This document shows positions 8,738 to 58,804 of a stretch of DNA of 64,000 bases, piece by piece. The notes under the pieces were generated by a model. The model saw only the letters and a list, made by a program, of their open reading frames with translations. It did no database searches and was not told the origin of the DNA. Source of the stretch: Synergistaceae bacterium (GTDB taxonomy: Bacteria > Synergistota > Synergistia > Synergistales > Aminobacteriaceae); the NCBI GenBank assembly GCA_031280635.1, contig JAITGK010000102.1, positions 1 to 64,000 of the forward strand, read 5' to 3'. The position numbers were made by a program, and so were the translations under genes. How positions within the stretch are numbered: position 1 is the first letter of the stretch; each line of letters begins with the position of its first letter.

Positions 8738-8754
8738 AGCTCCCAGGCGCTTCT

Positions 8755-10032
8755 CTAGAGTTTTTCAAGGTTAGAAACCTTGGGTAAAACGCGCTCTCTG
8801 TTGCTGTGGCGCGCCTTGTAGCCGTAGTAGTGCTTCGAAGTGGCAACGAGCACCCCCGTCATGCGGTCCGCTTCGTCGAAGGCGGCCTCGTAAATAGACA
8901 CTCGCTCTAGGGTGTCGCCCGACTCGTCGTATCGCTCCGTTGAGGTGACGCGCATGACGAAAAGCTCCTTCATCACCTGGCGAGCCGTATCCTGCGAGGC
9001 GAAAAGCGCGCGCATGGGCTTCATCAGGAACTGGGACTTCTCCGTTTTATAAATGTCAACAATGGCGTCGTTGGCCTTTATGATGGTGATGCTGTTTAAT
9101 ATCTCATCAAGCCTGGCGTCCACATTTTCGGCCTGCGGACGCTCGACGGGCTCCGGCGGCGCCAGGAAGGCGAAACCCGTGAAGGGCTGCCTAAAGGCAA
9201 AATTCATCTCCCGGCGGCTGTCCCCAATGATAGCCGCGTAGTGTTGGTGGCTCGTCAGGTCTCGTTGGGCGCAGTACAGCGCGGTGATGGAGTCCTCCTC
9301 GCCGAACAGCACCGCGCAGCGCATCTCCACCTGCGCGATTCTATTGAAAGCGTTGACCAGAGTCTCGGCCTTCATCTGCCCAACGAAGGAAAGCATGTCC
9401 AAAAAACGGAGCGCGTCGCTTTGATTGTTGAAAAAAGAAAAAAAAGGCGCCCCCATTAGGCCCTCGCCATTCTCGCCCCTGTAGAGGGTCACTGCCGCGT
9501 CGTTGGCGAACTTGACTTTCAGGTTCTCGCCCAAAAGCTTCAGGTAAGACGTCCTGTCCTCCTGGTCTCGCCGACCCTCCAGGGGCACAGAGGGGCGAAA
9601 CTCCAAATAGGGCTCGTAGGCCAGTCCCAGGTAAGATTCCCAGGAACCTCCGCTCTCGCCAGATGGAGGCTCCCGCGGGACGGGCCTGAAGGTGAAGACG
9701 ATGCCCTCGTCTCCAGCAAAAGAGGCGTTTTGCGCGGTGGCCAGGAAGTTTTTCACCATACTGTCGGCGCCCACGTGGGGAAAGGTGAATTCCTCACGGT
9801 CTTTGTTCCCGGATCGGGCCTTCACAAAAAGGCGGAGCAGGCCTCGTTTCGCGTTTTTCGTGAGGGTGGGAGCGTGGAACAGGTTCACGTCTTCGAGAAT
9901 ATCCTCGGAGATGCCCAGATACGCGTAAAAGAGGGCATTGGCGACGATGGTTTTCCCTCTTTTCCGCTCGACGGCCAGCACAGCGTCGGGTAAAGCGTTG
10001 ATGATGGACAATACCTCCGGGCCGATGTTCAT
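8755..10032 (-). CDS. PAS-domain-only protein of unknown function
   Basis: The 425-residue protein has three PAS-like segments: residues 1-60 (ALPDAVLAVERKRGKTIVAN), about 180-240 (GENLKVKFANDAAVTLYRG) and about 320-400 (SITIIKANDAIVDIYKTEK). No kinase, GGDEF, EAL, HTH or chemotaxis domain is visible, and no membrane helix. The start at 10032 is set by GGAGGAAA just upstream; a longer in-frame reading to 10272 has no RBS. It could be a sensor partner of a protein encoded elsewhere. It is convergent with the WG-repeat gene (17 bp apart) and divergent from the next gene. Confidence 0.6.
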   Translation of the reverse strand: MNIGPEVLSIINALPDAVLAVERKRGKTIVANALFYAYLGISEDILEDVNLFHAPTLTKNAKRGLLRLFVKARSGNKDREEFTFPHVGADSMVKNFLATAQNASFAGDEGIVFTFRPVPREPPSGESGGSWESYLGLAYEPYLEFRPSVPLEGRRDQEDRTSYLKLLGENLKVKFANDAAVTLYRGENGEGLMGAPFFSFFNNQSDALRFLDMLSFVGQMKAETLVNAFNRIAQVEMRCAVLFGEEDSITALYCAQRDLTSHQHYAAIIGDSRREMNFAFRQPFTGFAFLAPPEPVERPQAENVDARLDEILNSITIIKANDAIVDIYKTEKSQFLMKPMRALFASQDTARQVMKELFVMRVTSTERYDESGDTLERVSIYEAAFDEADRMTGVLVATSKHYYGYKARHSNRERVLPKVSNLEKL

Positions 10033-10298
10033 AGCCTTTCCTCCCCAGCCGGGCCCGCGCGCTCCGGCTTCGAATTTGGACGCTTTGAAACCGGACTGAG
10101 CCCATAGTGACGTTGTAATGTAAGGTATAAGTACTGCCGCTATTTTATTCCCAAAAACGCCAAAAGGCAAATTCGCCGTCCAGGGTCGACGGTTCCGCTT
10201 TATGGTTTTCCTATAAAATGATTTGTGATAAACTTTTCCCGTAGCAAATGCCTCATGTTGTACGGGCTTCACGTTGTTATAGTAAGGAGAGGGTGACA

Positions 10299-10655
10299 GT
10301 GCCGCGAGTTTGTTTCAGAAGTTCGTGTGTGTGGGCCACGCTTTTGGCCCTGGTCGTCAGCGTGGACATAACCCCGGAGGCGGCGGATATGCTGCTGGAA
10401 CGCGGGAACAGCCTTAGAGACGTGTGGATCGCTAACGTCTTTTACCAGTGCCGGGCCGGCAACGCGTTCGCGATGGTGAGGAACGGCCTGCCCCAGGGGG
10501 ATGCTTACGATGCCGTGGAGACGGAACGGGTGCGCGTTCACGTCCCGAAGGACATGTCCTTCACCGGAGACGTTCCTAAAATCGTCGTTTTCCCCCGTAA
10601 GAACGGGAGGTTCGATGTGGGCGTCCCCAACACGATGGATAGCGGCGCAAAATAA
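10299..10655 (+). CDS. Small protein resembling the CC/Se-motif (HesB-like) family
   Basis: The 118-residue protein may be exported, since a hydrophobic segment precedes SVDITPEAADMLLERG. The order is ITPEA, then a strand, then QCRAG, then a GLP turn, then VRVHVPKDM. This resembles the CC/Se-motif family of small redox or Fe-S-like proteins. If so, the usual CC or C-Sec pair is reduced to QC here, which would be odd. GTG 10299 is chosen for AAGGAGAGG 7 nt upstream. Family assignment is by eye and weak; the gene itself looks real. Confidence 0.4.
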   Translation: MPRVCFRSSCVWATLLALVVSVDITPEAADMLLERGNSLRDVWIANVFYQCRAGNAFAMVRNGLPQGDAYDAVETERVRVHVPKDMSFTGDVPKIVVFPRKNGRFDVGVPNTMDSGAK

Positions 10656-10677
10656 GCGACAACACGAAGTGACCAAC

Positions 10678-11085
10678 AGCGCGAAAGGCGCCTGCGCCGT
10701 TTTTTTCACCTACGTTCCGTGGGGGATACCGCCGGTTTACTGAGAGGCCCTGGCCTCCGTCGACTCGCTGGAAATCCTGGCGCGCCGAGTTGTGTGTTCT
10801 CGCGCCTTTTCGCTTTGCCTGGCGCTATTCGTTCCCAGGAAACTTGTCCTGTTGTTTCACTCGCGCCGCGCGCTGGGGATGTTGGCGTTTTCCAGCTTGG
10901 CCGTCTCCGCGAACTGGCGCGTCCACATCTGGGTCGTGAGTGACGGCAGGATTTTGGAGAGCGGCTTGGGCTGCTTCATCAATCCTCTGGTCAGCGTTTT
11001 GTTCGGCATTGTGTTTTTCAAGGAGCGCCTCGGAACGTTCCAGCGTTTGGCCGTGGCCTTGGCGGCGGCGGGGGCGTGTCCTTGA
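10678..11085 (+). pseudogene. Truncated, nonsense-mutated rarD-like (EamA) transporter remnant
   Basis: Read in one frame, the translation follows RarD from its N terminus: KGACAVFFTYVPWGIPPVY, an in-frame TGA (10740-10742), EALASVDSLEILARRV, then later WVVSDGRILESGLGCFINPLVSVLFGIVFF. The TGA falls where RarD has the Trp of the LYW-K motif. The frame ends at 11085 after AVALAAAG, leaving less than half of the usual ~290 residues, and some of the first loop is also missing. No RBS is evident. A nonsense mutation plus a 3' deletion makes this a clear relic. Confidence 0.8.
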
Positions 11086-11160
11086 GGCGCCTTTCGCTTG
11101 TGTTGATTGAATTTATTCTTTAAGCGAAAATACCTAGGAAAATAACGCGAAACCAGTAAC

Positions 11161-11166
11161 TATAAT
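11161..11166 (+). promoter_or_regulatory. Possible -10 box of the rib operon
   Basis: TATAAT sits in the AT-rich stretch upstream of ribD, but no convincing -35 is spaced correctly. No FMN-riboswitch conserved boxes are recognisable between 11086 and 11285, so regulation by that RNA is not supported. Confidence 0.3.
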
Positions 11167-11285
11167 AATTAAGCGTCAGGCTCATGCGCTTGCCCCGCCC
11201 TCCTACCCGATTCAGTTTATTTTGAGGTAAAATGTATTTCAACTCAAAGTGGCCCGTGGCGAAGACGGGCGGAGCGGGGAAAATC

Positions 11286-12395
11286 ATGACCGCGAAAAAC
11301 GTTATGGACGAATATTACATGAGGCGCGCTCTCTCCTTAGCGTGGCGAGGACTGGACGAAGCGCGTCCCAACCCCATGGTTGGGTGCGTGTTGGTAAAGG
11401 GATCGGGCCAGGTGGTCGGGGAGGGCTGGCACGCCCGCTGCGGCGGCTCCCATGCCGAGATCGCCGCTTTGACTGACGCGGCGCGGAGGGGTGAGGACGT
11501 TCGGGGCGCGACGGCCTACGTGACGCTTGAACCCTGCTCCCATTTCGGCAAAACCCCTCCTTGCGCCCCTCGTCTGGTGGAGGAGGGAATAGCTCGGGTT
11601 GTGGCGGGTTCAGCGGACCCGAACCCCAAGGTAGCGGGCAGAGGATTCGAAATATTGAGGAGCGCCGGGGTTCAAGTGACTACGTCCTGCCTTGAAGTAG
11701 AATGCAAGCGCCTGAACCGGGGATTTTTTAGGCGGCACACCCTGAACCGCCCCTGGATCACGCTGAAGGCGGCGACTGGGCTAGACGGTCGGATGGCGTT
11801 GCCCTCCGGCGAGAGCAAGTGGATCACGGGCGAGACGGCCCGGACGTGGGCGCATCTTCTGCGCGCCGGTCACGACGGTATCTTGGTGGGGGCGGGCACC
11901 GTTCTGGCGGATGACCCCGAACTGACGGTGCGGCATACTTGCGGTAAATCACCTTTACGCGTAATATTGGACGGCGGTCTTTCGATTCCGTCCACCGCTC
12001 GCGTTCTGAAAGGCGGATGTCTCGTTCTGACCGCGGAGGGCGGCGGAGAGGGACAGGAGGCGTTAGAGCGAGTTGGGGTGGAGGTCTGTCGCTTGCCCGG
12101 AAAGGACGGGCGTGTGGACTTGAGCGCCGCGCTGAAGGAGCTGGCCCGGCGCGGCGTACAGTCTCTAATGGTCGAGGGGGGGCCGAGGACGCTGTCCGCC
12201 TTTATGGGGGCGGGTCTATGCGACGGGTTGGCGCTTTTCACGGCGGCCTCCGTTATGGGCGAGGGGCCAGGCCTGGGGAGCGGGTTACGCTTCGATTTTA
12301 TGGGGGAGGCCCTCCGACTGAGGGAGACGCGCGCGCGTCGCGCGGGAAACGACCTGCTCGTGGAGGGGGTTTTTGAATGTTCACCGGCCTTGTAG
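11286..12395 (+). CDS. ribD: Bifunctional riboflavin deaminase/reductase
   Basis: RibD deaminates the GTP-derived pyrimidine and then reduces its ribosyl group, the second and third steps of riboflavin synthesis. The 369-residue product has an N-terminal cytidine-deaminase domain with zinc ligands His56 (HAE), Cys84 (PCSHFGKTPPC) and Cys93. The C-terminal RibD reductase domain runs from about residue 150 (ITLKAATGLDGRMAL, near-C-terminal MVEGGPRTLSAF). An in-frame ATG at 11232 with GAGGT close upstream would add 18 residues; 11286 gives the usual family length. It overlaps ribE by 19 bp. Confidence 0.93.
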   Translation: MTAKNVMDEYYMRRALSLAWRGLDEARPNPMVGCVLVKGSGQVVGEGWHARCGGSHAEIAALTDAARRGEDVRGATAYVTLEPCSHFGKTPPCAPRLVEEGIARVVAGSADPNPKVAGRGFEILRSAGVQVTTSCLEVECKRLNRGFFRRHTLNRPWITLKAATGLDGRMALPSGESKWITGETARTWAHLLRAGHDGILVGAGTVLADDPELTVRHTCGKSPLRVILDGGLSIPSTARVLKGGCLVLTAEGGGEGQEALERVGVEVCRLPGKDGRVDLSAALKELARRGVQSLMVEGGPRTLSAFMGAGLCDGLALFTAASVMGEGPGLGSGLRFDFMGEALRLRETRARRAGNDLLVEGVFECSPAL

Positions 12396-13045
12396 AGGCA
12401 ATTGGGACGGTGCGGGAGTCGCGATGGGTGGAAAGAGTTCTCCGGCTTTCGATCGAAAGTCTGGAGCTGGTTCCGGAGCTGGCTCTTGGCCAGTCTGTCT
12501 CAGTGGGGGGCGTCTGCCTTACTGTGATAGCGCTGAGAGGCGGGGCCTTTGACGTGGAAATGATGCCGGAAACGGCCTCGCGGACGCGGCTTTCTTCCTT
12601 GACGCGAGGACGCCGCGTCAACCTGGAACGGGCGATGACGCTGGGGGGACGACTAGACGGTCACCTGGTGCTGGGTCATGTGGACGGGACGGCCTCGCTG
12701 GAAAACCTGTCGGGTCCGCCCCGGACAAAGGAGGCGCGGTTCCGCGCGTCAAAGGGCTTAAAAAGCTCAATGCGCTACGTGGTGGCGAAGGGCTCCGTGG
12801 CCGTGGACGGGGTGAGTCTGACGGTGATCGAGGCGGACGGGGAAGGTTTTTCCGTGGGGTTGATCCCCGCCACGCTGGAAAGCACTGCCCTGGGGTTGCT
12901 GGGGCCAGGCGACTTCGTCAATGTGGAGACCGACATCGTGGGAAAATACGTGGAGCGCTTGCTAAACCCGCTCCCCGATAAAGTGGCGAGCGGATCGAAG
13001 GCGGGAGGATTGACTCTAGAGGAGATGTATCAGCTTGGTTACTGA
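12377..13045 (+). CDS. ribE: Riboflavin synthase alpha subunit
   Basis: It converts two 6,7-dimethyl-8-ribityllumazine molecules into riboflavin and one pyrimidine. The 222-residue product shows the duplicated lumazine-binding fold: repeat 1 starts [10 protein letters not shown] and contains [11 protein letters not shown], and repeat 2 contains [11 protein letters not shown] near residue 140. The length is normal for the family. The start lies inside the 3' end of ribD and the stop overlaps ribBA, so translation is probably coupled across all three genes. The gene is also called ribC in some species. Confidence 0.95.
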
Positions 13046-14288
13046 AAAAACGGTGTCCCCGGAAAACGGCGGCGCGGTGAAGTTCGATACGATAGAAGAC
13101 GCCATCGAGGACGTTCGCCAGGGACGCATGGTGCTCATCGTCGACGACGAGTCGCGGGAGAACGAGGGTGACCTCATGGTGGCCGCGTCGTTGGCCACTA
13201 CGGAGCGGGTCAACTTCATGGCCCGTTACGCGCGGGGCTTGGTGTGCGCGCCCATTGACGAGGAGACCGCTAAACGACTTCAACTGGAACCCATGACGCT
13301 GAAGGGTTCCGATAAGCACGGGACGGCGTTTTTGGTCTCGGTAGACGCCAAAGAGGGCATTTCTACGGGGATCTCTGCCGAGGAGCGCGCCATCACGGCG
13401 CGACTACTGACGAACCCAAACGCGAGGTCGGAGGACTTCTACAAGCCGGGGCACCTGTTTCCCTTGCAGGCGCGGCGGGGCGGGGTTTTGAAGCGGGCGG
13501 GGCACACGGAGGCCGCTGTGGACTTGGCGCGGCTGGCGGGACTTCCCCCAGCGGGCGTCATCTGCGAGGTGATGAACGACGACGGCTCTATGGCTCGTTT
13601 GCCGGACTTAGCGCCCTTCGCGGTACGGCATGGGCTGAAACTCATCATGGTGAAGGACCTGATCGCGTGGCGTAGCGTGCGAGAGAAGCTGGTCGAGAAG
13701 GTGGTGGAGGTGGAGTTGCCGACGGAGTTCGGGCAGTTCCGCGCCCATGCCTACCGCGGCGTTATCGAGGAGGACGACTGCCACACTCACATCGCTCTGG
13801 TGAAGGGAGATATATCGGGGGCGGACTGCGTGTTGGTGCGCGTCCACAGCGAGTGCTTGACGGGGGACGTGTTCGGTTCCTTGCGTTGCGACTGTGGGTC
13901 TCAGCTTCACGCCGCCCTGGCGATGATCGAAAAAGAGGGCGTGGGTGTGCTGCTCTACATGAGACAGGAAGGTCGAGGCATCGGCATCGTCAACAAACTA
14001 CGGGCCTACAAGCTGCAAGAAGAAGGCATGGACACGGTAGACGCCAATTTGGCGCTGGGCTACGCGCCGGATTTGCGGGACTATGGGACAGGCGCGCAGA
14101 TTTTGATGGACTTGGGGCTGAAGAACATTCGACTCCTGACGAACAACCCCCAGAAGGTGGTGGGGCTTGAAGGCTACGGTATTCACATTGTGACTCGTCT
14201 GCCGCTGGAAGTTGAGCCCAACGAGTTCAATAAAGGGTACCTACGCGCCAAAGAAAGCAAAATGGGGCATTTGCTGCACTTGTTGTAG
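13035..14288 (+). CDS. ribBA: DHBP synthase / GTP cyclohydrolase II fusion
   Basis: The 417-residue bifunctional enzyme supplies both precursors of the pathway. Residues about 15-215 form 3,4-dihydroxy-2-butanone-4-phosphate synthase ([12 protein letters not shown], then [13 protein letters not shown]). Residues about 220-415 form GTP cyclohydrolase II, with zinc cysteines in [18 protein letters not shown] and the catalytic MRQEGRGIG segment. The start is a TTG at 13035 overlapping the ribE stop, with GAGGAG about 11 nt upstream. An in-frame GTG seven codons in is possible. Confidence 0.94.
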
Positions 14289-14318
14289 GAACGAGGTAAA
14301 AAGGAGGGAGGAAAGCGC

Positions 14319-14804
14319 ATGCGCGTTGTGGAAGGTAAACTAATAGGAACAGGGTTGTCGATAGGGATTGTCGTGGCCCGTTTTAACGAATTGATCTCCA
14401 ATAAGCTGCTGGAGGGCGCGAAGGACGCGCTTCTGCGTCACGACGTGGCCCGCCAGAACATAGATATATTCTGGGCGCCAGGGGCGTGGGAGCTTCCTCT
14501 AACGACCAAAGAACTTGCCCTCTCCGGGAAGTACGACGCGATAGTGGCGCTAGGCGCGGTGATCCGAGGGGACACGCCACACTTTGACTACGTCGCGGCG
14601 GAGGTGTCCAAGGGGCTGGCCAATGTAGGACTGGAACAGCGCGTCCCCATCCTCTTCGGCGTGCTGACCTGCGACACGCTGGAACAGGCCCTACTCCGCG
14701 CGGGCGGCAAAGCGGGCAACAAGGGGGCGGACTGCGCCTGCGGGGCCATCGAAATGGCGAACCTGTTGAAAAACATCCGCCTAGGAGAAAAAAACGCCGT
14801 GTGA
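14319..14804 (+). CDS. ribH: 6,7-dimethyl-8-ribityllumazine synthase
   Basis: RibH condenses the RibD-derived pyrimidine with the RibB-derived butanone; it usually assembles as an icosahedral shell. The 161-residue product has ARFNELIS near residue 20, PGAWELPL near 56, [15 protein letters not shown] near 81 and the [12 protein letters not shown] segment. The ATG follows AAGGAGGGAGG. It is last of ribD-E-BA-H, 30 bp after ribBA. Confidence 0.96.
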
Positions 14805-14815
14805 CGCTTTTTTAT

Positions 14816-14839
14816 TTTTTGCCTTTTTGCCTTTTTGCC
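14816..14839 (+). repeat. Short tandem repeat, (TTTTTGCC) x3, ahead of an RBS
   Basis: Three perfect 8-bp units stand between ribH and the AGGAGG (14841-14846) that serves the next gene. Copy-number change here would alter the leader, not the reading frame. It also contributes T-runs that might weakly end the rib transcript. Confidence 0.6.
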
Positions 14840-14857
14840 TAGGAGGTGCCGCGTCTT

Positions 14858-16591
14858 TTGATCGTCTCCTACAGTCCGGAAATGATTTTTGGCTGCGTGA
14901 GCGCGGGCGTCATATGCCTCTGCGTTCAATACTTGACGAAACGCTTCTTCGAGCCTCGTCAATACAACTACTTGCGTGACCTACTCCTAGCTGGAACATG
15001 GGTGATCCTGGCGCTCTGGTACGGCTCGCCTCAATCCCGCTTCATCGTGGGGGCCGCCTTTCTGGCGGGACTTGTGGGGCTGGCGGAGAGCTTTTGGCCT
15101 GACGCGCGGGCGCATCTGGGCTACCTTCTCATTGGGCTCGCCTGTTCCCGCTTCGTTCCCATTGAGTACATCAGCTTCGTGGACGGCGAATACATTTATT
15201 TCGGTCCCATCATGTCCGTGGCGGTGACCTCCCTTTGGTTTTGGGTTTTCCCCGTCATTTTGCGGCAGATCGACGGCATTTCTGGGTTGGTTGGGTACAT
15301 GCTGGCCGTGACCTTTTCCCTGATGCTGACCTCCGTGGTGCTTGCCATGAACGGGATGCGGGACGCCTTTTTCATGTCCTTCGCGGGGGTGCTGCTACTG
15401 GGCGCGTTTTGGAGCCGGTTCAGCAACGTTTACCGGCAGGCGGGAAGGGCCATGTCGGCCATGTGGGGCACTCTGACGGCGGGCACGGCGATCCTGGGCG
15501 TCAGCAAGGGGATCGTCTTCAGTTCTATGCTCTATCTTTCCTTGGGCCTGTTCGCTATTCCCCTAGCGGAGGCCTCCCTTCACCTGGTGAGCCTGATCCT
15601 GTCCGACCCTCCCCAGGGCGCGGAGAGGTTTTACCGCAAATTGATCCTGCGCGGACTGGATCACCCCGACGCCGTGCACGTCATTGCCGGCCTCTGCGCC
15701 TTTTTGGGCATCGCTTCGGCCTTGTCCCAGTATCCGGAGAGTTACGCGTTTTGGGTCTGGGTGGGCGTCACGGGTCTTGTGGTTCTCGTCCTGTTCGTCC
15801 CGCTCTTTTTCAAATATGGGGGCCGATCCCCTATGTCTCAGGAAAAGCCCAGTCTTTGGGGCATTCGCATCGACAACATGTCCCTCAACTACGCGCTGGC
15901 GAGGGCGCGGGGCATGGTGTTGTCCCCCAAGGGCGCCAGGCTCATTTCCACTGTCAACGCGCTGGGAATGGACGAGGCCGTCCGCGACCCCGAATACCAC
16001 CATATCCTTCGACGCTCGGCAATGGTTTTGTCCGACGGGGTGGGCCTTCTGTGGGGACTGCGCTTTCTGGGGATGCCCATACAGGAGCGCGTGACGGGCA
16101 TCGACTTCGCCGAACAGCTTTGCCGTATGGCGGCGGTAGAGGGCTGGCCTGTTTACTTCCTGGGCTCGCGGGGCGACACGGCCCTGGCCTGTTCCAAGGT
16201 GTTGTCGGCGCGCTATCCTGGACTCATCGTTGCGGGGGCGCGGGATGGATACTTCACCATGGATGACTCCAAAATCGCGGAAGCCGTCCTCCGCTCTGGA
16301 GCGAAAATCCTTTTCGTGGCCATGGGGATTCCTCGACAAGAGAAATGGGTGATCCGCTACGCGAACCACCTGAGCGGAGTGCTGGCTGTGGGCGTTGGAG
16401 GGGCCTTTGACGTCCTGTCCGGCCGACTGAGGCGCGCGCCCCTAGCGATGCAGAAGATGGGGCTGGAATGGCTCTTCCGGTTGTGCCAAGAGCCCTTCCG
16501 TTGGAAAAGAGACCTGTACCTGGCCGCGTTCGTTCTCCGCGTGGTGGCGACGCGCTTGGGGCTTTACGACTGGAAGGGGGAGGAGCGCTGA
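14858..16591 (+). CDS. Degenerate WecA/MraY-like membrane domain fused to WecG/TagA/CpsF glycosyltransferase
   Basis: The product has about 577 residues. Residues 1-330 are polytopic membrane and follow the WecA/MraY pattern (GLVGLAES where DD is expected, RQIDGISGL for the NxxD-G-DG loop). All catalytic acidic residues and the HH motif appear to be lost. Residues about 335-577 form a GT26 (WecG/TagA/CpsF) domain with IDNMSLNYAL, STVNALGMDEA, SDGVGLLWGLRFLG, VFYLGS-type FLGSRGD, FVAMGIPRQEKW and VGVGGAFDVLSG. GT26 enzymes add a sugar to lipid-linked carriers in wall-polymer or antigen synthesis. A GTG at 14846 lies inside the AGGAGG itself, so TTG 14858 is taken as the start. Confidence 0.75.
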   Translation: MIVSYSPEMIFGCVSAGVICLCVQYLTKRFFEPRQYNYLRDLLLAGTWVILALWYGSPQSRFIVGAAFLAGLVGLAESFWPDARAHLGYLLIGLACSRFVPIEYISFVDGEYIYFGPIMSVAVTSLWFWVFPVILRQIDGISGLVGYMLAVTFSLMLTSVVLAMNGMRDAFFMSFAGVLLLGAFWSRFSNVYRQAGRAMSAMWGTLTAGTAILGVSKGIVFSSMLYLSLGLFAIPLAEASLHLVSLILSDPPQGAERFYRKLILRGLDHPDAVHVIAGLCAFLGIASALSQYPESYAFWVWVGVTGLVVLVLFVPLFFKYGGRSPMSQEKPSLWGIRIDNMSLNYALARARGMVLSPKGARLISTVNALGMDEAVRDPEYHHILRRSAMVLSDGVGLLWGLRFLGMPIQERVTGIDFAEQLCRMAAVEGWPVYFLGSRGDTALACSKVLSARYPGLIVAGARDGYFTMDDSKIAEAVLRSGAKILFVAMGIPRQEKWVIRYANHLSGVLAVGVGGAFDVLSGRLRRAPLAMQKMGLEWLFRLCQEPFRWKRDLYLAAFVLRVVATRLGLYDWKGEER

Positions 16592-17055
16592 TGGTCACAA
16601 CGGTGGGAGAAGTGATGGACCGCGACTTGACGGTCGTCATGGAGAACAGCACCATCAACGAAGCCATCGATATTTTTTTCCTTCACAACGTGGGAGGACT
16701 GCCAGTGGTGGACGCGAACTGGAGGCTAGTGGGCTTTCTGTCCGAGACCGACATCTTACGGGCCGCCACGCCGTCCTACCTGGAGGTACTCACGCAGAGT
16801 TCCTTCCTAAGCGGCGAGGAGGAGGAGTTCGCACGCCAGATGAAAAAGCTGGGCGGTCTCCCCGTGCGGGACTACATGACCAAGTCTCCCACTGCCGTGG
16901 AGCCTTACGTGAGCCTCATGTCCATTTCCGACCTGATGATACGGAAGCACCTCCGCCGCCTCCCTGTGGTGGAGGACGGCGTATTGGTGGGAAGCATTGA
17001 CCGCAGGACTCTGTGGAACTTTATCATTGAGGGACAGGATCGCGATGACGGATAG
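16591..17055 (+). CDS. Tandem CBS-domain protein
   Basis: This 154-residue stand-alone CBS pair has motif 1 around residues 5-60 (VGEVMDRDLTVV, GGLPVVDANWRLVGFLSETDIL) and motif 2 around 92-150 (VRDYMTKSPTAVE, HLRRLPVVEDGVLVGSIDR). CBS pairs bind adenosyl nucleotides and usually regulate a partner. The ATG overlaps the upstream stop (TGATG), so it is translationally coupled to the glycosyltransferase fusion. The partner is unknown. Confidence 0.85.
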   Translation: MVTTVGEVMDRDLTVVMENSTINEAIDIFFLHNVGGLPVVDANWRLVGFLSETDILRAATPSYLEVLTQSSFLSGEEEEFARQMKKLGGLPVRDYMTKSPTAVEPYVSLMSISDLMIRKHLRRLPVVEDGVLVGSIDRRTLWNFIIEGQDRDDG

Positions 17056-17392
17056 ACACGGCCCAGCGGCCGTCCCCGACCCTCTTGCCGCCGCGCGGGA
17101 GCAGATCGAGGCCATGAGCCGCCGCCTTGCTGGGGATATGGAGGCAAGAAAGATCGAGTTCGAGCGATTCAAAGAAGATACTTTGTGGCGTTTGAACGCC
17201 CTTTCCGATCGTACCATTGAAAACGCCCGCGCGGAGGAAAGGGAAGTGGACGAACGTCTTGCCCAGGACAGGGCAGAGGCAGACGCGAGGAGCGCCGCCT
17301 GGAGGGAGCGCCTTCTGACTCGGGCCCGCGACAAGGAACTCATCGCCGCCCTGGCGAAGGACGCCTTCGAGCGCTTGCTTCCTCCAGTTTGA
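17045..17392 (+). CDS. Small coiled-coil protein, function unknown
   Basis: The 115-residue protein is dominated by a charged helix rich in Glu, Arg and Ala from residue 15 to 105, consistent with a coiled coil. It overlaps the CBS gene by 11 bp and starts at ATG 17045, so it probably belongs to the same operon. It distantly recalls stalk-like subunits of rotary ATPases, but no motif supports this. Confidence 0.55.
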   Translation: MTDRHGPAAVPDPLAAAREQIEAMSRRLAGDMEARKIEFERFKEDTLWRLNALSDRTIENARAEEREVDERLAQDRAEADARSAAWRERLLTRARDKELIAALAKDAFERLLPPV

Positions 17393-17454
17393 CATATTCC
17401 CACTGAAATTCCAGCGGCTTTGCTGTGATGTAAACTTTTTCGGAAACTACGATC

Positions 17455-18561
17455 ATGGACGAATTTCTTAAAGCCAAACTGCTCTTGAATGCCTGCAAAG
17501 CGCCGCTTTCCGCATGGGAGACCCTGAAAGGACGCAGCGCTCCAGAGGCTTTGTGGATAAAGGGCGAGGGCCTGTGGCGGGAACTAGGCATTCGCCCTTC
17601 GTCCCGCGCAAAACTTGTGGAGCTCCTAGCGGAGCGCGGTTGGCCTGAACGCGAGATGGATCGGGTGGACTCCTTCGGCGCGCGTTTTCTTGCGGCGGAC
17701 GAAGAAGGCTATCCTGTTCGTTTGAAAGACCTGCCCTCGCCTCCCATTGGACTCTACGTCAAAGGAGAGTTAGACGAACGGAAGCCCTACCTGGCAATTG
17801 TGGGAACGCGGCAGTGTAGTCGGTATGGTCAGATGATAGCCGAGGCGCTGGGTCGCGCGGCCGCCTACGCTGGGTTTCAGGTGCTCAGTGGCGGCGCGAG
17901 GGGCATCGACGGGGCGGGGCACCGCGGTTGCCTGGCGAATGCGGGAACGACGGTGGCCGTTCTGGGCACGGGGGTAGACCGGGTGTATCCTGCCGAACAC
18001 CGTCCCCTCTTCCACCAAATCGCGGAGAAAGGGGCGCTGGTGTCGGAGTATCCTATGGGAACGGGCGGCGAACCATGGCGTTTCCCGGAACGCAACCGGA
18101 TCATTGTGGGGATGTGCTCGCGTTTGGTCGTCGTGGAAACCGCGGAGGACGGTGGGGCAATGATCACCGCGCGGCTGGCGCTGGACATTGGGCGCGAGAT
18201 ATGGTGTGTGCCCGGTCGCGTCACGGAGAACGTCGCCAAGGGAACCAACGTCTTGATCCGCGACGGGGCCCACCCTTTGATCGACGTAGAGGACTTCATC
18301 GGAAAAATATCGGGCCGCTACGGGCAGCTTCTGTTGAATTTCCCGGAGGCCCCTCCGCCGTCCTCTCCACTTTCCAAGGAAGAAAAGCTTGTTTTGGAGC
18401 TCCTGCGCCGCAGGGGAGACCGCACGTTGGACGACTTGATGGCGGAAAGCGAACTGGACTTCGTCTCCTTACAGACCTGCCTCTTGTCGCTTTGCGCCTC
18501 AGGCCTCGTCCACGAGTCCGGCCCCGGTCGCTACCAAGAAGCTTGTTCCCTGGCCCCATAG
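17455..18561 (+). CDS. dprA: DNA-processing protein DprA (Smf)
   Basis: DprA binds incoming single-stranded DNA and loads RecA during natural transformation. The 368-residue product has a helical N-terminal part. The Rossmann-like core shows VGTRQCSRYG near residue 105, LSGGARGIDGAGHRG near 143, GTGVDRVYPAEH near 171, FPERNRIIVGMC near 205 and GAMITARLALD near 230. A winged-helix-like C-terminal domain starts near residue 300 (TLDDLMAES). A complete dprA suggests at least a relic of competence; no com genes are seen here. Confidence 0.94.
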   Translation: MDEFLKAKLLLNACKAPLSAWETLKGRSAPEALWIKGEGLWRELGIRPSSRAKLVELLAERGWPEREMDRVDSFGARFLAADEEGYPVRLKDLPSPPIGLYVKGELDERKPYLAIVGTRQCSRYGQMIAEALGRAAAYAGFQVLSGGARGIDGAGHRGCLANAGTTVAVLGTGVDRVYPAEHRPLFHQIAEKGALVSEYPMGTGGEPWRFPERNRIIVGMCSRLVVVETAEDGGAMITARLALDIGREIWCVPGRVTENVAKGTNVLIRDGAHPLIDVEDFIGKISGRYGQLLLNFPEAPPPSSPLSKEEKLVLELLRRRGDRTLDDLMAESELDFVSLQTCLLSLCASGLVHESGPGRYQEACSLAP

Positions 18562-18573
18562 AGACTTTACCCC

Positions 18574-18582
18574 TGTTATAAT
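18574..18582 (+). promoter_or_regulatory. Extended -10 promoter ahead of the NifU-like gene
   Basis: TGTTATAAT combines the TGn extension (18574-18576) with a perfect -10 TATAAT (18577-18582). No good -35 is present, which is normal for extended -10 promoters. It lies just after dprA and about 35-55 bp before the next start. Confidence 0.6.
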
Positions 18583-18636
18583 GAGGTAAGGTGGTTATTT
18601 GAGAAATTTTTTTGTATGAAAGGGGTAATGACAAGG

Positions 18637-19329
18637 ATGATCTATTCCGCAGAAGTCGAGCGTATGTGCCCAGTGGCCAAGGGCGCGTACCACGGCCCGG
18701 CGCCCATCCCCCAGGAGGGGAAGTGGGTGCAGGTCAAGGAGAACGGCGACATCAGCGGCCTGACCCATGGCGTGGGCTGGTGCGCCCCTCAACAGGGAGC
18801 CTGCAAACTGACCCTCAACGTCAAGAACGGCGTTATTGAGGAGGCGCTGGTGGAGACCATTGGCTGCTCCGGCATGACGCACTCGGCGGCTATGTCGGTG
18901 GAGATTCTTCCGGGCAAGACGCTTCTGGAGGCCATGAACACCGACCTCGTCTGCGACGCTATCAACGTGGCCATGCGGGAGCTTTTCCTGCAAATCGTCT
19001 ACGGTCGCAGCCAGACGGCCTTCTCGGAGGACGGCCTGCCTGTGGGCGCGGGGTTGGAGGACCTGGGTAAGGGACTCCGCAGCCAGGTAGGCGCCATGTA
19101 CGGTACCAAGGCCAAGGGCGCGCGCTACTTGGAAATGGCCGAGGGCTACGTGACGCGGCTGGCCCTGGACAAGGACAACCTGATCATAGGGTATGAGTTT
19201 ATCCATATGGGCAAGGCGATGAACGCCATCAAGAAGGGCAAGGACGCGGGCCAGGCCCTGAAGGAGGCCACGGGTTCCTACGGGCGCTTCGCCGAGGCGG
19301 CCAAATACATCGACCCGCGCGAGGAATAG
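18637..19329 (+). CDS. NifU-like iron-sulfur scaffold protein paired with GGGtGRT protein
   Basis: This 230-residue NifU/IscU-type protein has cysteines in MCPVAKG near residue 7, GVGWCAPQQGACKL near 47-58 and IGCSGMTHSAA near 76. These are candidate cluster ligands. It is commonly annotated as an iron-sulfur assembly scaffold and is typically found next to the GGGtGRT gene, as here (12 bp apart). The start is uncertain among ATG 18616, 18628 and 18637; MIYSAEVERMCP is chosen as most like the family, and AAAGGGG lies upstream. The specific client is unknown. Confidence 0.75.
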   Translation: MIYSAEVERMCPVAKGAYHGPAPIPQEGKWVQVKENGDISGLTHGVGWCAPQQGACKLTLNVKNGVIEEALVETIGCSGMTHSAAMSVEILPGKTLLEAMNTDLVCDAINVAMRELFLQIVYGRSQTAFSEDGLPVGAGLEDLGKGLRSQVGAMYGTKAKGARYLEMAEGYVTRLALDKDNLIIGYEFIHMGKAMNAIKKGKDAGQALKEATGSYGRFAEAAKYIDPREE

Positions 19330-19341
19330 GAGGGAACCACA

Positions 19342-20340
19342 ATGGCGACATTCGAGAGCTACGAGCGGCGCATCAAAAAAATTGACTCCGTCCTGAGGGA
19401 GTACGGGATACCGAACCTGGACGAGACGGAAAAAATGTGCAAAGAAAAGGGTTTTTCGCCCATCGACATCGTGAGGGGAATTCAACCCATTGCCTTCGAG
19501 AACGCGGGCTGGGCCTACACTATGGGCGCGGCGATAGCGCTTAAAAAGGGCTGTAAAAACGCCGCGGACGCCGCCGAAGTTATCGGCATAGGGCTCCAGG
19601 CGTTTTGTATCGCGGGCTCCGTAGCGGAGGACCGCAAAGTGGGCTTGGGGCACGGCAACCTGGGGGCTATGCTGCTGCGGGACGAGACAAAGTGCTTCGC
19701 GTTCCTGGCGGGACACGAGTCCTTTGCGGCAGCGGAGGGAGCCATCGGCATTGTGCGTAACGCTAACAAGAGCCGCAAAGCGCCGCTTCGGGTTATTCTG
19801 AACGGCCTGGGGAAGGACGCGGCGCAGATCATCTCGCGGATCAATGGCTTCACCTACGTGCGGACACAGTTCGACTACGCGTCGGGCAAGGTGAACGTGG
19901 TTAAGGAAATCGCCTACTCCGGCGGCGAGCGCAAAAACGTGCGTTGCTACGGCGCGGACGACGTGCGAGAGGGCGTGGCCGTCATGCACCTGGAGGGCGT
20001 GGACGTGTCCATTACGGGTAACTCCACCAACCCAACTCGTTTCCAGCACCCCGTGGCGGGCACGTATAAGAAGGAGTGCGCGGAAATGGGGAAAAAATAC
20101 TTCTCCGTGGCCTCTGGCGGAGGTACAGGGCGCACGCTGCATCCGGACAACATGGCGGCCGGGCCCGCCTCTTATGGTATGACCGACACCATGGGTCGAA
20201 TGCACTCCGACGCCCAGTTCGCGGGGTCGAGTTCCGTTCCCGCTCACGTGGAGATGATGGGCTTCCTGGGCATGGGTAACAACCCCATGGTGGGCGCGAC
20301 GGTGGCCGTGGCCGTAGCCGTCGAGCAGGCAATCAAATAG
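19342..20340 (+). CDS. GGGtGRT protein
   Basis: This 332-residue member of a conserved family is named for its motif, seen here as SGGGTGRTLHPDNMAAGP near residue 258. Other visible parts are IDSVLREYGIPNLDE near residue 14 and a Gly-rich C terminus MGNNPMVGATVAVAVAVEQ. It follows the NifU-like gene within one transcript, with GGAGGGAACC as RBS. Biochemical function is not established; co-occurrence suggests Fe-S handling. Confidence 0.85.
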   Translation: MATFESYERRIKKIDSVLREYGIPNLDETEKMCKEKGFSPIDIVRGIQPIAFENAGWAYTMGAAIALKKGCKNAADAAEVIGIGLQAFCIAGSVAEDRKVGLGHGNLGAMLLRDETKCFAFLAGHESFAAAEGAIGIVRNANKSRKAPLRVILNGLGKDAAQIISRINGFTYVRTQFDYASGKVNVVKEIAYSGGERKNVRCYGADDVREGVAVMHLEGVDVSITGNSTNPTRFQHPVAGTYKKECAEMGKKYFSVASGGGTGRTLHPDNMAAGPASYGMTDTMGRMHSDAQFAGSSSVPAHVEMMGFLGMGNNPMVGATVAVAVAVEQAIK

Positions 20341-20423
20341 GAAATAGTCGGAGGTTTGGCGCAAAAACGCAAAACGAAAACGCGTTGCGCGAAAAACGCT
20401 CCGTGTTCTGGTGAGCCCATTAT
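20341..20423. other. Gap with GCGCAA/TTGCGC inverted repeat, possibly an eroded dispersed repeat
   Basis: GCGCAA (20359-20364) faces TTGCGC (20384-20389), followed by GAAAAACGCTC. This recalls the right half of the dispersed repeat (TTTGCGCGGAAAAGAGC), but the identity is too low to call it a copy. Confidence 0.25.
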
Positions 20424-21599
20424 ATGAAAGGAAGTGCGTTTGTTTTGAGATTGGCGGATCGGTACCAAAAGGCGCAGCCATCTGGAATGGTTAAAATCTT
20501 CCAGGCAATCGAGAAGATGGACGAGGTGCTGAACCTCGGCATCGGCGAGCCCGATTTTGACACGGAGCACGACATCATCGACGTGGCGGCAAGGGCCGCG
20601 AAGGACGGCTTCACGCATTATCCCCCGCTGCAGGGGTTTTTCGACGCGCGCGAGGCGGTTTGCGCTTATTGGAAACGCCATCACGGGCTCAACAGCTCAC
20701 CCGACGAGGTTCTGATGACTGTGGGGGGTATCCAGACCCCGAACTTGGCGATGCAGGCCCTGCTCAACCCTGGCGACGAGGTGGTTCTGGTGGAGCCTTG
20801 CTTCACGCCCTACTTCATTCAGGTTCGGGACAGCGGCGGCGTGCCCGTTTCCGTCAGAACGACAGAAGAAAACGGCTTCGCCCCTACCATTGGCGACTTG
20901 GAAAAAGCGATCACGCCTCGAACTAGGATTCTCCTGCTGAACTCCCCCTGCAACCCCACGGGACGGGTCATTCCACGCGGACAGTTGGAGGAGATCGCCG
21001 CTTTGGCCGCCAAACACGACCTCTTCGTGTTGAGCGATGAGATATACGAATCCCTGGTTTACAAGGGCAAGCACACGGCGTTTTCCACGCTTCCCGGCAT
21101 GAGGGAAAGAACGCTGCTCATGGGAGGCATGTCAAAGAGCCACTGCATGACCGGTTGGCGCGTTGGCTACGCCATCGGCCCCACAGACCTGATTCGCGTC
21201 ATGACCATGATTGCCACCAGCAGAACCTACGGACTGAACACCTTGGCCCAGAAAGCCACCGCCTACGCCCTAGCCAGCCACGACGAAAAATTGATAGAGC
21301 GCGAGAAGATCTTCACCGAGCGCATGGACTATGTCTCCGGGCGTCTGAATAAGATGAGGAACGTTACCTGCGCGTCCGCTGAGGGGGCTTTTTACCTCTT
21401 CCCCAACATCAAGGGCACGGGGCTTACCAGCGAGGCTTTCGTCTGGAAACTTTTGGAGGAATCCCACGTGGCCACTATCCCCGGCTCCGCGTTCGGACCA
21501 AGTGGCGAGGGGTATCTCCGTATCGCCTGCACCCAGTCGATGGAGATTCTGGTCCAAGCCATGGACCGCATGGAAGCCTTCCTGAAAAACCTGAAATAA
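20424..21599 (+). CDS. Class I/II PLP-dependent aminotransferase (aspartate/aromatic-type)
   Basis: The 391-residue fold-type I aminotransferase has LNLGIGEPDFDT near residue 36, THYPPLQGFFDARE near 62, NSPCNPTGRVI near 173 and SDEIYESLVY near 205. The Schiff-base lysine lies in GGMSKSHCMTGWRVGYA (Lys near 237), and RIACTQS near the C terminus carries the carboxylate-binding Arg. Substrate is not determinable; aspartate, aromatic or branched-chain amino acids are possible. ATG 20424 follows GGTGAG at 8 nt. A terminator hairpin follows directly. Confidence 0.88.
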   Translation: MKGSAFVLRLADRYQKAQPSGMVKIFQAIEKMDEVLNLGIGEPDFDTEHDIIDVAARAAKDGFTHYPPLQGFFDAREAVCAYWKRHHGLNSSPDEVLMTVGGIQTPNLAMQALLNPGDEVVLVEPCFTPYFIQVRDSGGVPVSVRTTEENGFAPTIGDLEKAITPRTRILLLNSPCNPTGRVIPRGQLEEIAALAAKHDLFVLSDEIYESLVYKGKHTAFSTLPGMRERTLLMGGMSKSHCMTGWRVGYAIGPTDLIRVMTMIATSRTYGLNTLAQKATAYALASHDEKLIEREKIFTERMDYVSGRLNKMRNVTCASAEGAFYLFPNIKGTGLTSEAFVWKLLEESHVATIPGSAFGPSGEGYLRIACTQSMEILVQAMDRMEAFLKNLK

Positions 21600-56318: not shown

Positions 56319-57335
56319 TCACCTGCCGAAAACCAAGACGCACAGCGCCGCCGTCAGGGACGCGCCCACGGCGTGAATCGCGAGGAATCTTCCCGTGACC
56401 TTCGTTTCATCCCAGCCCATGCGCTGAAAATGGTGGTGCAACGGGGCCATCCTGAAAACCTTTCTTCCGAACCCACGGATAGCGATAATCTGAACGGCGG
56501 ACGAAAGCAGTTCCAGGCCGAAAATGAAGCCCGCTGGAATCAGCGCCAGCACCGCGCCGCCCTCCACGCACAGCATAACCAGCGCGCCCCCTAAAAAATG
56601 CGAGCCCGTATCGCCCATGAAAATACGCGCTGGGCGGATGTTGTAAAACAGGAAAGCCGTCAGCGTCCCCAAGAGCACGGCAAAGTCCACCACCAAACAA
56701 GGCGAGAGCTTCAAAATGCAGGCCAACACGCCAAGGGAGATAAGAAAGGCCCCTCCCGCCAGCCCATCCAGACCATCCGTTACGTTAACGGCGTTCATCA
56801 TTCCCACCGTCCCCAGAATGGTTAGCGGCACGGCGAGCCAGCCTGGCCAGTCAAGGGCGCCCCGCCAGGCGAAAAGCCCAAACCTCGCCTCCGCCGACGT
56901 CACCCAGATCGACGCCACGGCCACTTGAACAGCCAATTTGCCCAGGCTGGAAAAACCCTCACTGGATCGGCGGCTGACTTTGAGCCAGTCGTCCCAGAAT
57001 CCAATGGCCCCGCAGGTAACGGGTAGACTCCAGAAAAGGACAGACCAGTTGACGACCAACAGCCTCACCTCCGCGACAATGGCGGCAAAGGCCATAACGA
57101 TAAAGGCGACGCCCCCCATGGTCGGGGTGGCGGCCTTGATTTCCACGTCGATGCCAACGCCGTAGCTTTTTTGTACCTGACTAACCCGCAGACGGTGCTG
57201 GACGGAGATCAAGATATTCTGGAGTTCCAGACCACCGACGAGACTCAGTACCCCGGCGACAGTCACAAGGCCAGCAAAGGACAAGAGGAAGGAGAAGATA
57301 AGCCAGTTTGTCGTTCCCGCTTCTCCCATGTCCAT
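56319..57335 (-). CDS. mraY: Phospho-N-acetylmuramoyl-pentapeptide-transferase
   Basis: MraY transfers phospho-MurNAc-pentapeptide to undecaprenyl phosphate, giving lipid I. The 338-residue product has ten helices, with TPTMGGVAFIVMAF near 69, the catalytic GFWDDWLKV near 110, NAVNVTDGLDGLAGG near 185, FMGDTGSHFLGG near 240 and the MAPLHHHFQRMGW triple-His motif near 296. The ATG overlaps the murE stop (TGATG). murF, normally between murE and mraY, is missing. Confidence 0.95.
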   Translation of the reverse strand: MDMGEAGTTNWLIFSFLLSFAGLVTVAGVLSLVGGLELQNILISVQHRLRVSQVQKSYGVGIDVEIKAATPTMGGVAFIVMAFAAIVAEVRLLVVNWSVLFWSLPVTCGAIGFWDDWLKVSRRSSEGFSSLGKLAVQVAVASIWVTSAEARFGLFAWRGALDWPGWLAVPLTILGTVGMMNAVNVTDGLDGLAGGAFLISLGVLACILKLSPCLVVDFAVLLGTLTAFLFYNIRPARIFMGDTGSHFLGGALVMLCVEGGAVLALIPAGFIFGLELLSSAVQIIAIRGFGRKVFRMAPLHHHFQRMGWDETKVTGRFLAIHAVGASLTAALCVLVFGR

Positions 57336-58804
57336 CACCGCGCCAGGCGTATCCACTCATCGACGGTTTCCGCGTCGTTGTAGGGGATTTTTCTGCCCTG
57401 TATCGTCAAAAATTTCTCCGGTCCCTTGCCTGACACCACCAACACGTCCCCCGACCCAGCGGCGGCCAGGGTCTTCGTGATTGCTTCTTTCCTGTCCAAA
57501 ATAACCTCATAGGGGATCTCCCGGCCGCTGTTTTCGATCCCCTGGACGATGGCCTCCGCAATCCGCGCGGGGTCTTCGTCACGGGGATTGTCCATCGTGA
57601 CCACGACCCGGTCGGCCAGCCCCGCCGCCACACCCCCCAGCGCCGGGCGGTTGGACGGGTAACGCCCGCCCCCGTGCCCAAAGATGGAGACCAGCTTACC
57701 GGAGCAGAAGCCCCGCGCCGCCGACAGCACGTTGCGGAGCGCCTCCGGCGTGTGAGCGAAGTCGATGACGCAACAAGCCCCACTGGGCAGGGGGTGTCTT
57801 TCCAGTCGTCCCGGCGCCTGGGGAACGCTCGCTATGCCCTTCGCGATTACGGCGTCGTCGAGTTTTCCCCTTAGAACGGTCGCCGCGCCCAAGACGTTGG
57901 CGACGTTAAAACTCCCCGCTAGCGGGCTTTTCACCGGCAGGGGCGACCAACCCTTGGCGGTGATGACAAACGAGCTCCCCTCCACGTCCAGTCGCGTCCC
58001 GGAGGCGTCGGAAAGGGAGAAGGGTCGGAACTCTGGAGACGCGAACTCCGCCAGCAGCCGCGCTCCGTAGGGGTCGTCCGCGTTGATAGCCGCCACGCGG
58101 CATTCCTTGGAGTGCTTTGTGAACAAAAGGCGCTTTGCCTGAAAGTAGTTTTCCATGTCTTTGTGGTAATCCAAGTGCTCTGGGCTGAGGTTGGTGAACA
58201 CGACCGCGTCGAAACGACAGCCCGAGAGCCGCCCAATATGGAGTCCGTGAGAGGACGCCTCCATGACGCAAGCTTCGCACCCGTTTCCCACCATGGCTGC
58301 CAACAGCCTTTGGAGACGGCAACTTTCGGGCGTGGTTCGCTCCGCGTCGCGCTCCTGGACGCCGTCGCTCTCCACCACCGTGCCCAGAAGCCCCGTCCTC
58401 AGACCAGCGGCTTGCAGAATGCCGCGCAGGATGTACGTGGTGGTGGTCTTGCCATTGGTACCCGTCACCCCAACCATGAAAAGCTTCGAAGCCGGTTCCC
58501 CATACGCCAAGGCGGCCAGCTCCCCCATGAGCCCCCGAGTGGACGAGGTTCGGAAGAGTGGAAGACCTGTCTCCACGGGGCGCTCGCAGACCAAGGCCGC
58601 AGCCCCGGCCGCCTCCGCCGCCGGGATGTATCGGTGTCCATCGTCTTTTTCGCCCTCGATACAGCAAAAGACGGAGTCAGGACAGATCTCACGACTGTCC
58701 GCGAAGACGCCAGAGACCTCCGGATCTTTGGCCCCCTCAGCCGCCGTGAAGGCAAATGAAAAACCCCTTTCCGTCAGGGTTTGAACCAGGGACGAGAGCC
58801 TCAC
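57335..58804 (-). CDS. murE: UDP-MurNAc-L-Ala-D-Glu--meso-diaminopimelate ligase
   Basis: MurE adds the third residue of the wall peptide. The 489-residue product has the ATP loop GVTGTNGKTTTTYIL near 114, TTPESCRLQRLL near 155 and EASSHGLHIGRL near 180. The DNPR motif (MDNPRDEDP near 403) indicates meso-diaminopimelate rather than lysine. The GTG start overlaps the ftsI stop (GTGA). It is followed directly by mraY. Confidence 0.95.
   Translation of the reverse strand: MRLSSLVQTLTERGFSFAFTAAEGAKDPEVSGVFADSREICPDSVFCCIEGEKDDGHRYIPAAEAAGAAALVCERPVETGLPLFRTSSTRGLMGELAALAYGEPASKLFMVGVTGTNGKTTTTYILRGILQAAGLRTGLLGTVVESDGVQERDAERTTPESCRLQRLLAAMVGNGCEACVMEASSHGLHIGRLSGCRFDAVVFTNLSPEHLDYHKDMENYFQAKRLLFTKHSKECRVAAINADDPYGARLLAEFASPEFRPFSLSDASGTRLDVEGSSFVITAKGWSPLPVKSPLAGSFNVANVLGAATVLRGKLDDAVIAKGIASVPQAPGRLERHPLPSGACCVIDFAHTPEALRNVLSAARGFCSGKLVSIFGHGGGRYPSNRPALGGVAAGLADRVVVTMDNPRDEDPARIAEAIVQGIENSGREIPYEVILDRKEAITKTLAAAGSGDVLVVSGKGPEKFLTIQGRKIPYNDAETVDEWIRLAR

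Follow-up and report, generated by a model that had tools for sequence, protein, structure and literature searches.

What could a membrane domain related to WecA contribute to a glycosyltransferase once its own catalytic motifs are gone? The question is raised by a gene at 14858..16591 (+ strand) of the window, by which we mean the whole 64,000-nucleotide stretch of Synergistaceae DNA that was analysed. Its open reading frame (~577 aa) encodes an 11-helix N-terminal membrane domain followed by what appears to be an intact GT26 (TagA/WecG) glycosyltransferase. An earlier sequence-only reading had proposed a fusion of a WecA-like membrane half to a GT26 half, and the open frame, the predicted fold and the PF03808 match all agree with it.

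Results

Start site and gene context

We considered the TTG at 14858 to be a better start than the alternative in-frame GTG at 14846, since an AGGAGG (14841-14846) lies 11 bases upstream of the TTG and the GTG overlaps this ribosome-binding site. Residue numbers of the fusion are counted from the GTG; 4 has to be subtracted for the TTG start. Directly upstream lies a riboflavin operon in the order ribD-ribE-ribBA-ribH (window 11232-14804), which is kept in most of the named Synergistota loci, often with serS in between. Window 8500-21000 gave no match to Rfam, FMN riboswitches included. The neighbourhood of the fusion consists of riboflavin and housekeeping genes, with no glycan genes adjoining and no functional link to it.

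Fold and ancestry of the membrane half

The pseudo-PNPT membrane domain spans residues ~11-325 (14876..15820, + strand) and has 11 predicted helices. A search of PDB sequences with the profile of this domain gave no match, and a fold comparison was needed. The AlphaFold model of the domain alone (pLDDT 79.6, pTM 0.81) was compared to the PDB using Foldseek. The top 23 matches were all MraY/DPAGT1 chains with a probability of 1.00 (E 1.6e-5 for 8tlu_E and TMt 0.67 for 6oyz_B), and MraY/DPAGT1 were the only confident fold matches. Superposition had been named beforehand as a test that could refute kinship with polyprenyl-phosphate sugar-1-phosphate transferases, and the modelled domain does superpose on MraY/DPAGT1. 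This indicates that the membrane half has the MraY/DPAGT1 fold. In the full-length predicted model, Foldseek likewise returned MraY/DPAGT1 for the membrane half and TagA for the other half; the pTM was 0.63, and how the GT26 half sits over the groove is therefore not fixed by this model.

Against PF00953 the window protein's membrane half scores 11.9 bits, under the curated cut-off of 27. Of the five homologues in two deeper families, f11 and f12, four pass this cut-off at 34-37 bits, and the f11/f12 membrane-domain profile scores 34 bits against WecA and at best 15 against MraY. Aligned by hhalign to 21 true Synergistota WecA, columns 61-283 pair with 69-276 at P 3.6e-4, with HH-suite's own probability at only 37%, and each lost motif stands opposite its intact WecA counterpart. 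Taken together, the fold match, the WecA profile alignment and the PF00953 scores of f11/f12 argue that the membrane half descends from WecA/TagO, to which it appears nearer than to MraY.

The active site of MraY faces the cytosol. The last helix, TM11 (residues 301-325), would return the chain to the cytosol, and the GT26 half would then lie on the side of the old active site, a topology that fits docking of a substrate in the membrane half. The helix count here is taken from predictions and the sidedness from general knowledge of MraY.

Loss of the catalytic motifs

In MraY and WecA, the residues of the DD, GD and His motifs bind Mg and do the chemistry. In the window protein, hhalign places AES (residues 80-82; 15083..15091, + strand) opposite the GYMDD of the genome's WecA, and alignment to this WecA and to homologues places FWSRFSNVYRQAG (residues 188-200; 15407..15445, + strand) at the lost GDxG loop. 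The lost HxHH loop site (15632..15667, + strand), located by homologue alignment, keeps Y263, G270 and H273. By the same alignment the DxxxG loop is retained as DGISG (residues 143-147; 15272..15286, + strand) with an invariant D143. Compared to the genome's true WecA, GYMDD has become GLAES, IDGVNG has become IDGISG, FLGDGGS has become RQAGRAMS, and HLHH is absent. The alignment therefore confirms the readings AES and DGISG and the loss of GD and HH given from the sequence alone.

The motif status of homologues had also been named beforehand as a refuting check, and the catalytic residues are not kept in the 85 homologues aligned. None of the 85 has a genuine DD where the motif belongs; the single DD string, in L021, is out of register. 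The HxH/HH motif is missing from the window protein and from 84/85 rows, the sole exception being an outgroup row with YHH. Partial leftovers of GDxG occur only in some outgroup members of this alignment, and in Synergistales a conserved FWSR and YR stand at the GD site. The leftovers differ between outgroup lineages (LGDELSTMLG in L161, another in P0006), which is what descent by decay from an active WecA would produce. The contrast set of 21 true WecA has DD in 21/21, the textbook GDGGS in 16/21 and the textbook HxHH in 19/21. Since the residues lost here are those that bind Mg and catalyse in MraY/WecA, the membrane half is, in all likelihood, catalytically inactive.

We considered H273 as a remnant of the catalytic HH and rejected this, because its counterpart in WbpL/WecA-type enzymes is a conserved His further along (GYPHAAVT). 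All three of Y263, G270 and H273 have aligned counterparts in active copies of the WbpL type (HLYQQFIKAGYPHAAVT), and are therefore inherited.

The GT26 half

The GT26 (WecG/TagA/CpsF) domain with its C-terminal appendage covers residues 337-571 (15854..16558, + strand). It matches PF03808 (E 1.1e-57, 194.9 bits against a cut-off of 27.4), TIGR00696 (158.1 bits against 69) and TagA in PDB 7mpk (E 3.4e-44). In the 7mpk alignment T369, D397, R415, Q498 and R552 correspond to TagA T37, D65, R83, Q167 and R221, and they are conserved in homologues. The equivalents of TagA Thr37, Asn39, Asp65, Arg83, Gln167, Glu168, Arg214, Arg221 and Arg224 are all present; every TagA residue named as catalytic or pocket-conserved in PMC6493773, from which the functions of these residues were taken, is thus kept. 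The GT26 half seems intact, as had been claimed. The TagA/TarA equivalog NF041710 scores 138 bits against a cut-off of 350; because this cut-off is not reached, we infer, rather than assign, specificity for UDP-ManNAc as the donor.

Conservation and constraint

Full-length homologues were found in 59 of the 61 relatives, including all 48 good genomes, with a few split by contig ends, and the membrane half was matched in 172/188 Synergistota genomes. The plain similarity search with the membrane half missed five genomes of f11 and f12, and an absence of the fusion from these deeper families was rejected after a GT26/PF00953 search. Three f11 genomes have full-length fusions, a fourth has the fusion split between contigs, and the f12 genome has only a membrane-domain fragment cut at the contig end. 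The f11 fusions carry different leftover catalytic motifs. In a pattern scan all 42 named loci were Synergistota, the patterns being specific to Synergistales. The plasmid search with the membrane half gave no match, and among the plasmid GT26 matches listed only the GT26 half was covered, with none of the 266 records reaching 80% of the query. The matches in 172/188 genomes and the full fusions in f11 speak for a gene that is not decaying. In two relatives (L016, L019; G010:C30 and G015:C28) the matched stretch of the fusion gene has one in-frame stop each (TAA, TAG); with open frames of 575-585 aa at these loci, the stops are probably the normal gene end read through.

D143 is Asp in all 85 aligned homologues, outgroup included; G147, K221, Y263 and G270 are nearly invariant, and position 191 is R or K. 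The phylum-wide set is limited to these six positions, with H273 and the YR motif not common to the outgroup. Some of these residues may be structural, and active relatives have the Y, G and H as well. Constraint is uneven along the membrane half. Mean entropy is 1.15 bits in the DGxxG loop, 1.20 in the GD-site loop, 1.06 in TM8 and 0.77 in the TM8-9 turn, all conserved at least as well as the GT26 half (1.49 bits). It rises to 2.64 bits at the old DD site, 2.60 in TM1 and 2.8-2.9 in TM11 and the linker. Such a pattern is unlike that of a bare anchor; it would be explained by a ligand site that has been kept or by contact with another protein. Presentation of the lipid carrier and recruitment of a true WecA both fit this conservation pattern.

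True WecA and pathway genes

In order to find an active WecA, a check set beforehand, we searched the genome and identified an intact one (L002) on contig C151, with YMDD, DGVNG, GDGG and HLHH, directly before wecB. The MraY of the genome, with intact motifs, is a separate enzyme (56319..57356, - strand) and was used for comparison. WecA and MraY are present in nearly every relative, and almost all have a true WecA in addition to the fusion. Some Synergistota have an additional intact WbpL/WecA-type enzyme (DD, MDGIDG, GDxGS, HRxH) beside MraY and WecA (L099-L103, in relatives G052, G043, G014, G031 and G022). In 17/21 genomes examined wecA is followed by wecB. In two families wecB lies away from wecA, elsewhere in the genome (L130, L133, L135 and L137, in G038, G040, G047 and G049).

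All 48 good genomes have wecB; CsaB, in some cases scoring under its curated cut-off, is present in 47 of them, and so are LCP proteins. The genome of the window also encodes two paralogous proteins of OmpM type, each with an SLH domain at the N-terminus and a barrel of the outer membrane (L174:178-1746, - strand; L175:1372-2997, + strand). SlpA-like/OmpM connectors have been reported in Synergistetes (PMC9388160), and pyruvylated wall polymers are bound by the SLH domains of some diderm Terrabacteria (PMC10628300). Paenibacillus alvei makes pyruvyl-ManNAc-GlcNAc-PP-lipid with TagA, CsaB and MnaA, the last an epimerase of the WecB type (PMC6030368). The co-occurrence of WecB, CsaB and LCP proteins, the SLH porins, the TagA residues and the fact that the fusion is the only GT26 above cut-off in the genome point to a role of the fusion in a pyruvylated wall-polymer pathway, an assignment made from gene co-occurrence only.

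The fusion could also serve another ManNAc glycan (O-antigen/ECA-like) rather than an SLH-binding wall polymer, which would be compatible with any mechanism of the membrane half. Several glycans are served by GT26 enzymes, co-occurrence does not amount to linkage, and the pathway genes are scattered. However, the genome has no second GT26 above cut-off, and nearly all relatives with the fusion also have CsaB and LCP proteins. We regard this other destination as unlikely, at roughly a quarter of our belief.

Discussion

Candidate mechanisms

Homology and fold, loss of the catalytic site, the intact GT26 residues, phylum-wide conservation and pathway co-occurrence were computed directly; what we infer is the substrate, the polymer and, most of all, that the dead half serves to dock the lipid. 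Our leading proposal, held at slightly below an even chance, is that the fusion is the TagA-type ManNAc transferase of an outer-membrane-anchoring polymer, whose pseudo-WecA docks undecaprenyl-PP-GlcNAc for the fused GT26. The separate intact WecA would make undecaprenyl-PP-GlcNAc and WecB would make UDP-ManNAc. The pseudo-WecA would take undecaprenyl-PP-GlcNAc into the old polyprenyl groove and hold it at the cytosolic face, where the fused GT26 would add ManNAc. CsaB would then pyruvylate the ManNAc, giving a wall polymer that could be gripped by the SLH/OmpM porins. Docking in the old groove is the mechanism we favour, tentatively and with a little less than half of our confidence; the ligand is likely to be the product Und-PP-GlcNAc rather than the bare carrier. 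Against this reading, TagA as a free-standing protein can bind the membrane and act with no domain of this kind (PMC6493773); the small phylum-wide residue set, some of it perhaps structural, the full-length pTM of 0.63 and the neighbourhood without glycan genes also count against it.

The conserved surface might instead be a protein contact. The pseudo-WecA half could heterodimerise with the true WecA, so that GlcNAc-PP-lipid would be handed straight to the GT26 and the half's own pocket would be mainly structural or regulatory. Polytopic enzymes such as MraY are dimers (PMC10942596), and the true WecA accompanies the fusion in almost every relative. Yet the highest conservation lies in the cytosolic loops and TM8-9 round the old active site and not on one outward helix side, as judged helix by helix. 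We would give this partnership perhaps one chance in four.

Less probable still, and rather doubtful in our judgement, is that the membrane half is a mere anchor keeping the GT26 at the membrane. The free drift of TM11 and the linker would be natural for an anchor, and TagA requires membrane contact for activity (PMC6493773). It would leave unexplained, however, the retention of D143 in 85/85 homologues and of K221, Y263, G270 and the 7-8 loop, and the GT26 retains its own C-terminal appendage for membrane binding. Remaining catalysis by the membrane half through some unusual metal-poor mechanism, which would make the protein bifunctional, is highly improbable despite the retained D143 and fold: the window protein lacks the DD pair, the GD Asp that binds Mg and the His loop, the DD site varies freely and an intact WecA is present.

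If the dead half does hold undecaprenyl-PP-GlcNAc, it would offer a natural product-bound WecA for structural study. The docking reading, if true, would also mean that two consecutive membrane steps are linked in one chain and that outer-membrane anchoring in Synergistota has a phylum-specific step. That in a whole phylum a dead copy of the first enzyme serves to hold the substrate for the second, to which it is fused, in a route to an outer-membrane-anchoring polymer, we put forward with some reserve, as somewhat short of an even chance. For annotation, the fusion gene should not be called WecA.

Comparison with known systems

Kinases and proteases include well-known pseudoenzymes; for the MraY/WecA superfamily we are aware of no described case. 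No published description of the fusion was found in the open-access literature searched. A 2024 table gives the domain content of the polytopic enzymes as 'PGT only' (PMC10942596). For outgroup members Pfam will show the domain combination, which is hence not hidden from databases.

With WecA/TagO and MraY (PF00953) the fusion has in common the fold, topology, motif order and one Asp of the DxxxG loop; unlike them, it is without the catalytic and metal residues and is joined to the next enzyme of the pathway. TagA/TarA (PDB 5WB4, 7MPK; PMC6493773; P. alvei TagA, PMC6030368) has the same GT26 fold, catalytic residues and C-terminal appendage arginines, but the known TagA is a free-standing peripheral protein, whereas the Synergistota fusion adds an 11-helix N-terminal domain. 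All enzyme types of the SLH/OmpM-pyruvylated wall polymer pathway (TagO, MnaA/WecB, TagA, CsaB) are present and conserved in relatives. The Synergistota pathway, known here from genes alone, differs in that its ManNAc transferase would be the fusion.
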